From assembly GCF_003967195.1 (NCBI RefSeq), contig NZ_AP018725.1, positions 992,001 to 1,056,000 of the forward strand: a stretch of 64,000 bases of DNA. The letters are read 5' to 3'. The notes beneath the pieces are model-generated. The model was not told the DNA's origin, did no database searches, and worked only from the letters and a program-made list of their open reading frames with translations. This document shows, piece by piece, positions 35,535-35,877 of this stretch (positions within the stretch are counted from its first letter, which is position 1; each line of letters starts with the position of its first letter). This stretch comes from Sulfuriflexus mobilis. GTDB lineage: Bacteria > Pseudomonadota > Gammaproteobacteria > AKS1. The position numbers and the translations under genes are program-made.

Positions 35535-35625
35535 GGAGAGGTGCCAGAGCTGGCCGAATGGGCTTGACTCGAAATCAAGTGAGCCCTTGCGGGCTCCGAG
35601 GGTTCGAATCCCTCCCTCTCCGCCA
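35535..35625 (+). tRNA. tRNA-Ser (anticodon CGA)
   Basis: Acceptor GGAGAGG pairs with CCTCTCC (35615-35621), with discriminator G and encoded CCA at 35623-35625. The anticodon loop in TTGACTCGAAATCAA reads CGA. The long variable arm (GAGCCCTTGCGGGCTC) and GGTTCGAATCC T-loop confirm a serine tRNA. The 3' end is repeated 160 bp downstream. Confidence 0.97.
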
Positions 35626-35716
35626 AATATATCGGCCTGAAACAGGTTTTTAGACGGCTCGGTCGGGGTGAGGAAGCTACGCATGCTAAGGGCTTCCCGT
35701 CAGCCAGTTGAGCATA
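35614..35716 (+). repeat. tRNA-Ser 3'-end repeat unit, copy 1
   Basis: The unit starts with the last 12 bases of the tRNA (CCCTCTCCGCCA), runs through a small CCTG-AAA-CAGG-TTTTT hairpin that could be the tRNA terminator, and continues to GAGCATA. It matches 35774-35877 nearly exactly; the main difference is one extra T (GGAAGC versus GGAATGC). The period is 160 bp. Confidence 0.9.
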
Positions 35717-35773
35717 GCTCAACCGGCGTTCGGTTCGCGCAAAGCGGTGCTTTGCATAAAACGCTTACCTCAC

Positions 35774-35877
35774 CCCTCTCCGCCAAATATATCGGCCTGA
35801 AACAGGTTTTTAGACGGCTCGGTCGGGGTGAGGAATGCTACGCATGCTAAGGGCTTCCCGTCAGCCAGTTGAGCATA
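35774..35877 (+). repeat. tRNA-Ser 3'-end repeat unit, copy 2
   Basis: This is the second copy of the unit described at 35614-35716. It includes CCTCTCCGCCA at 35775-35785, but no tRNA body precedes it, so it cannot make a tRNA. Similarity stops after GAGCATA. The 57 bp between copies are unique. Confidence 0.9.

Follow-up and report, generated by a model that had tools for sequence, protein, structure and literature searches.

A repeated tRNA-Ser(CGA) 3' end in Sulfuriflexus mobilis as a probable case of tRNA-tethered structured RNAs of the rtT kind

Results

The 3' end of tRNA-Ser(CGA) is repeated downstream of the gene

The window, i.e. the whole stretch of 64,000 nucleotides of the S. mobilis genome that was analysed (positions 992001-1056000 of contig NZ_AP018725.1; window positions are counted from its first letter), contains a tRNA-Ser(CGA) gene in an ordinary setting: the upstream neighbour encodes a solute-binding/transglycosylase protein, and those downstream encode a cupin, a DUF1622 protein and a LysR regulator. 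A sequence-only reading of this DNA had claimed that the 3' end of the tRNA is duplicated, and repeat comparison bore this out. The last 12 nt of the tRNA (CCCTCTCCGCCA) and the next 94 nt recur 160 bp downstream, 35614-35719 being repeated at 35774-35880 with 105 of 106 aligned bases identical and one inserted base (start spacing 160-161); the exact tRNA part ends with a mismatch at the 13th base (Table 1). An exact stretch of 62 nt rejects a chance origin, and the repeat is absent from the list made by Tandem Repeats Finder. An assembly duplicate is an unlikely source because the two copies are not identical, the genome consists of a single contig, and similar arrays lie at other tRNAs and in other species.

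The remainders of the two units (35720-35773 and 35881-35945) gave an alignment score that was equalled by 42 of 500 shuffles and, therefore, their homology is uncertain. In the genome, the body of the unit was found only here and at tRNA-Ser(TGA), where the common stretch is ~84% identical, and a dispersed repeat was rejected. The earlier reading had proposed to look for copy-number differences: the repeat is present in two of 13 Ser(CGA) loci fetched from other genomes, so that most of these loci are single copy, and the tRNA sets fetched from three congeners contained no Ser(CGA) gene. The small terminator-like hairpin of that reading is weak (-5.2 kcal/mol; 22/200 shuffles fold as well), and the terminator scan did not report it. 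A promoter scan of 35350-36100 found nothing.

Table 1. Coordinates of the features of the two tRNA-Ser arrays in the window
Feature	Position	Strand	Evidence
tRNA-Ser(CGA), CCA encoded	35535..35625	+	ARAGORN; Rfam tRNA
Repeat unit 1, 160 bp: tRNA 3' end, trailer, 5' arm, hairpin body	35614..35773	+	Repeat comparison
5' arm GGGGTGAGG of the helix closing unit 1	35665..35673	+	Score 25 with next repeat end, 7/500 shuffles; fold
3' arm CCTCACCCC, overlapping copy 2 of the tRNA 3' end	35768..35776	+	Fold and pairing score
tRNA 3' end, copy 2 (CCCTCTCCGCCA)	35774..35785	+	Repeat comparison
Repeat unit 2: first 107 nt near-identical to unit 1, remainder diverged	35774..35948	+	Alignment; closed fold lost (z +0.43)
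Damaged third tRNA-end match TCTCCGCC	35949..35956	+	Match score
tRNA-Ser(GGA), head of second array in window (41849-42170)	41849..41939	+	ARAGORN
RtT-family unit 3' of tRNA-Ser(GGA)	41979..42112	+	R2 68.0 bits; RF00391 39.6 bits
Inverted copy of Ser(GGA) T-arm, 18/19 nt	41986..42004	+	0/200 shuffles; score 33 vs <=24 for other isotypes
Ser(GGA) tRNA 3' end, copy 2, 16 nt exact	42097..42112	+	Repeat comparison

The first Ser(CGA) unit folds into a closed structure

Folded as RNA, 35658-35785 gives a closed multi-hairpin unit ending in the CCA of the tRNA-end copy at -58.5 kcal/mol (z -4.83; none of 200 shuffles was as good), while unit 2 lacks the closed fold (Table 1). The closing helix of unit 1 comprises 9 bp and lies on the tRNA-end copy, its score of 25 being reached by 7/500 shuffles. 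By contrast, the closing arm GGGGTGAGG scores only 15 against tRNA-Ser(CGA) itself (342/500 shuffles) and pairs with the second copy, CCTCACCCC, instead. In the Ser(TGA) units the pairing score is 27 with the own tRNA end vs 19 with the next copy.

Similar arrays lie at about ten tRNAs of S. mobilis

The own 3' end is repeated downstream of eight of the 42 tRNA genes, i.e. Ser(TGA), Ser(CGA), Ser(GGA), Arg(TCT), Arg(ACG), Pro(TGG), Pro(GGG) and Pro(CGG), vs 21 matches in 1478 swapped pairs, where the swapped matches include downstream tRNA genes. In three congeners, one of which is Sulfuriflexus sp. RS_11_44, this was the case at 9/87 tRNA genes vs 127/6376 swapped pairs. Two further S. mobilis tRNAs, Ser(GCT) and Glu(TTC), both read by eye, have damaged copies, and the arrangement is thus present at ~10 tRNAs, about a quarter of the tRNA genes.

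Some of these loci have features of their own. At Ser(GCT), the RtT copy (L052:1775-1955) is interrupted twice by what seems to be the same palindromic element, one insert splitting the copy of the tRNA end, and a truncated 5' part of tRNA-Ser(GCT) is apparently fused to an RtT core just 5' of the intact gene (L052:2215-2325). At Glu(TTC) (L051:690-960), an RtT-like unit is accompanied by a damaged 3'-end copy with an inserted base and then a second terminator copy. The array at tRNA-Pro(CGG) (L050:453-1240) consists of seven near-identical 112-bp units with eight 3'-end copies and has a palindromic GAACCCCTTCGGGTT body unlike RtT.

Units at six tRNAs, but not the Ser(CGA) unit, belong to the RtT family by sequence

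We searched with the Rfam model of RtT RNA (RF00391; gathering score 45 bits) and with two covariance models of our own, R1, made from six cores, and R2, made from 63 aligned units. R1 and/or R2 place the units at Ser(GGA), Arg(TCT), Arg(ACG), Pro(TGG), Ser(GCT) and Glu(TTC) in the RtT family. The Ser(GGA) unit (41979-42112), which lies in the window, scores 68.0 bits with R2 (E 2.3e-13) and 39.6 bits with RF00391 (E 4.4e-6), the latter under the cut-off; its fold is no better than those of shuffles (z -1.00). In the S. mobilis genome, R2 has nine matches at E <= 1, all beside tRNA genes: eight start 43-233 nt downstream of one, and the remaining match is 80 nt upstream of Ser(GCT). None of the nine falls at Ser(CGA).

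Neither R1 nor R2 matches the Ser(CGA) unit, RF00391 was not found up to E 1 in 34000-37500, and with all three models missing it, the unit was rejected as an RtT by sequence. The RtT motifs GGATGAGAACC, GGTTCGAC and GAGTAATCC are absent from 35626-35785 (read by eye), and the score for an inverted T-arm is at chance (11 vs a mean of 11.2). In its layout, the unit follows a tRNA directly and terminates with a repeat of that tRNA's 3' end, and unit 1 is closed by a helix on this repeat. To judge from sequence and predicted fold, the Ser(CGA) unit combines an RtT-type frame with a variant body, and its locus is of a known kind. The earlier reading had likened the locus to E. coli tyrT/rtT as an independent case; the likeness of arrangement stands, but the case is not an isolated one, because the RF00391 family is present at other tRNAs of the same genome, including Ser(GGA) 6 kb away.

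RtT-type units follow many tRNAs in proteobacteria

Among 56 relatives, R1 matches 26 at E <= 0.01, and R2, which was built partly from genomes that were later searched with it, matches 24 at E <= 0.001. RF00391 exceeds its cut-off at a tRNA-Gln of congener G001 (54.3 bits). Across 369 genomes of the class, 66 match RF00391 at E <= 0.001 and 23 lie over the cut-off; in 14 control genomes, E. coli alone matches. As a side observation, the tRNA-Tyr RtT array of another genome has a group II intron (RF02012, 115.5 bits) in its vicinity (L155:2248-2395).

A pattern that is blind to tRNAs gave at least 130 matches in GTDB genomes. Among the matches listed, 103/130 have a same-strand tRNA <=500 nt upstream, vs 525/6500 random points; these 103 tRNA-linked matches cover at least 23 isoacceptors, and in 58 of them the cognate 3' end is repeated. 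By title, the genomes of the matches listed are mostly Gamma-, Beta- and Alphaproteobacteria, and the small number of other bins may represent contamination.

Within the genus, we compared 15 hand-picked cores. For Pro(TGG) and Gln(TTG), the nearest cores are those at the same tRNA in other species; by contrast, the Ser(GCT) core in G002 resembles the Ser(TGA) core in G003 (0.83), and so units can change tRNA. These comparisons suggest that the units are mostly inherited with their tRNA and occasionally move to another.

The units have a common architecture that tends to match the own tRNA

RtT-type units have the order trailer/terminator hairpin, inverted copy of acceptor and T-arm, GGTTCGAC, hairpins, GAGTAATC or GTCAATC, and tRNA 3' end from the T-loop on. 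The E. coli units have the same order, inverted arm included. The loci used in the following comparisons (47 arrays; 61 and 83 units) were largely fetched by RtT-like queries and, as a result, isoacceptor counts taken from them are not unbiased. In the 47-array set, which adds the two arrays of the window, the inverted own T-arm outscores all other isotypes in 31 arrays and ranks within the top 5% in 38; in the 16 arrays outside the 31 it does not outscore all of them. Anchored on the motif, a pairing run of >=7 with the own repeat end was found in 31/83 units vs 59/5586 isotype-swapped pairs. In a scan of whole bodies in the 61-unit set, which omits the window, the own end paired better than all swapped ends in 12 units only.

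For the alignment, 83 units that passed the motif filter were reduced to 71 by length, duplicate and N filters and then to 63 by eye, with no tested criterion, the eight dropped units being L219, L236, L245, L252, L264, L266, the second L267 unit and L287, several of them from oddly titled metagenome bins. In the 63 units, 83.0% of cells are paired vs 68.6% in shuffles, two-sided changes occur at 23 of the 31 pairs of the proposed structure, and the covariation score is 0.366 vs 0.144 in shuffles and at most 0.139 in slid versions. Selection on pairing need not be the source of the covariation in helix 1, which could instead have arisen as the tRNA was copied. Such copying does not account for hairpins 3 and 5, which are unrelated to tRNA in sequence and show two-sided changes at each of their pairs (9/9). 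Inside helices, G-U and A-C occur 11 to 7, which gives no clear answer on selection for a strand-specific RNA. A kink-turn was considered as a candidate for GGAUGAGAACC; a tandem G-A motif in RtT is already described in the extract of PMC7657543.

These pairings bear on a reading in which the unit acts in cis, i.e. the inverted arm pairs with the 3' half of the upstream tRNA, and this arm and the trailer hairpin together govern termination or the folding of the tRNA. Consistent with such action, inverted arms match the T-arm including its 5' strand, which is missing from the repeat copy (19 nt in Ser(GGA), 30 nt in Pro(TGG)), and the best pairing partner of Ser(TGA) is the tRNA. However, the Ser(CGA) arm pairs with the repeat copy and not with its own tRNA (25 vs 15), and in the 63-unit alignment a coherent, covarying structure is obtained with just the downstream copy. 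We consider cis action improbable.

Discussion

We lean towards the view, drawn from comparative sequence, that the Ser(CGA) repeat is one of ~10 tRNA-tethered, CCA-ended structured RNAs of the rtT kind that are co-transcribed with their tRNA and amplified by recombination. In many arrays an upstream arm is complementary to the repeated tRNA 3' end, which allows the unit and this end to form a closed multi-hairpin RNA that terminates in CCA. The units would be made by read-through from the tRNA promoter. The closing helix would imitate the stacked T and acceptor stems and, together with the CCA, would let tRNA-maturing enzymes trim the 3' end, with the 5' side perhaps processed by RNase P, and trimming would release a stable RNA. 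The released RNA might be a decoy for tRNA 3'-end-binding proteins that tunes the maturation or use of tRNA. Copy number would shift via recombination between the direct repeats, and unused copies would decay, as Ser(CGA) unit 2 may have done. A transcribed, copy-variable repeat fits the extracts of two papers, since a Thioalkalivibrio RtT sRNA is up-regulated at 10 C (PMC8092127) and the rtT of Salmonella is a 175-bp variable-number repeat (PMC2658671).

The Salmonella repeat is also in line with selfish or neutral tandem duplication without a product, in which slippage or unequal crossing-over acts at short repeats 3' of tRNA genes. The seven near-identical units of Pro(CGG), with their body unlike RtT, and the decay of Ser(CGA) unit 2 also agree with such an origin, which we nonetheless regard as unlikely: the RtT hairpins carry many two-sided changes across proteobacteria, and the units follow at least 23 isoacceptors with inverted arms that match the own tRNA.

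The att sites of elements that integrate at tRNAs are direct repeats of the tRNA 3' end, as in these arrays, and the T-loop is where many tRNA-targeting integrases act. The sequence-only reading had offered the footprint of an integration and excision at such a site as its other explanation for Ser(CGA). We found no support for it, because none of the four tyrosine recombinases (PF00589) of the genome is encoded in 992001-1056000, the repeat continues 94 nt past the tRNA rather than being limited to a core with unrelated DNA beyond, and the layout recurs at ~10 tRNAs. In a broader version, site-specific integration at tRNA 3' ends would have left the arrays behind as relics, i.e. miniature or decayed, gene-less elements with att-like repeats from the T-loop on. 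The direct repeat of RtT-type units starts in the T-loop, the body sits between direct repeats of the tRNA 3' end, and the resemblance of the Ser(GCT) core in G002 to the Ser(TGA) core in G003 indicates that units can change tRNA. Nevertheless, the window lacks a tyrosine recombinase gene, no recognised gene lies inside the units, the cores at Pro(TGG) and Gln(TTG) have their nearest counterparts at the same tRNA in other species and so are inherited rather than recently hopping, and the hairpins covary in the 63 units. Altogether, we regard such relics as quite unlikely.

Returning to the reading as rtT-type RNAs, the RtT units that follow many tRNAs, and tend to match each, are of greater interest than the Ser(CGA) case alone. 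Most descriptions of rtT treat it as a by-product of a single tyrosine-tRNA operon in E. coli. Should the frame prove to follow many tRNAs and to match the own tRNA, the role of rtT could not be specific to Tyr and would have to concern tRNA 3' ends generally, and its purpose would become testable in a laboratory strain. It is possible, and we put this forward only tentatively, that RtT-type units are a general layer of proteobacterial tRNA biology: tRNA-retargetable RNAs with sense and antisense copies of the T-arm and acceptor strand of the host tRNA, which would fold as CCA-ended tRNA mimics and be freed by the enzymes that process tRNAs, with a separate version for each isoacceptor. On this view, the frame would carry a second body, unrelated in sequence, in the Ser(CGA) unit.

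The wider occurrence of RtT has partly been noted before, since extracts of two papers report RtT near Asn and Lys tRNAs and at "many other tRNA operons" (PMC4986893) and rtT-like sequences linked to repeats upstream of other genes (PMC2965389). In extracts of further papers, RtT structure is treated (PMC8250186, PMC7657543), three RtT are listed for Pectobacterium (PMC4710047), and a laboratory strain is reported to have lost RtT along with one tyr tRNA gene (PMC12584984). In the open-access literature we found no paper on RtT units matched to many isoacceptors; the original description of rtT lay outside this search, and absence from print is thus not established.

Among known systems, sX4 (RF02223) gives a weak match over tRNA-Ser and trailer, and this identity was rejected because the 38.9 bits are far below the cut-off of 70 and the match spans the tRNA itself. 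Unlike att sites, the arrays come with no element and no integrase nearby, and the repeat exceeds the tRNA part. RNAs of the 3'ETS-leuZ type, i.e. from tRNA 3' external transcribed spacers, come from the 3' side of a tRNA precursor, as is proposed for these units; we know of no 3'ETS RNA with a repeated tRNA end. The closest system is RtT RNA (RF00391; rtT/rttR of E. coli tyrT-tyrV). In contrast to E. coli rtT, where the unit spacing is 178 bp, the S. mobilis arrays lie at ~10 tRNAs, none of which is Tyr; no unit in the window reaches the RF00391 cut-off, and the Ser(CGA) and Ser(TGA) units differ in their body and are not matched by the models. In both systems, however, the units lie 3' of a tRNA whose 3' end is repeated at the terminus of each unit, and a helix on that repeat closes the unit.
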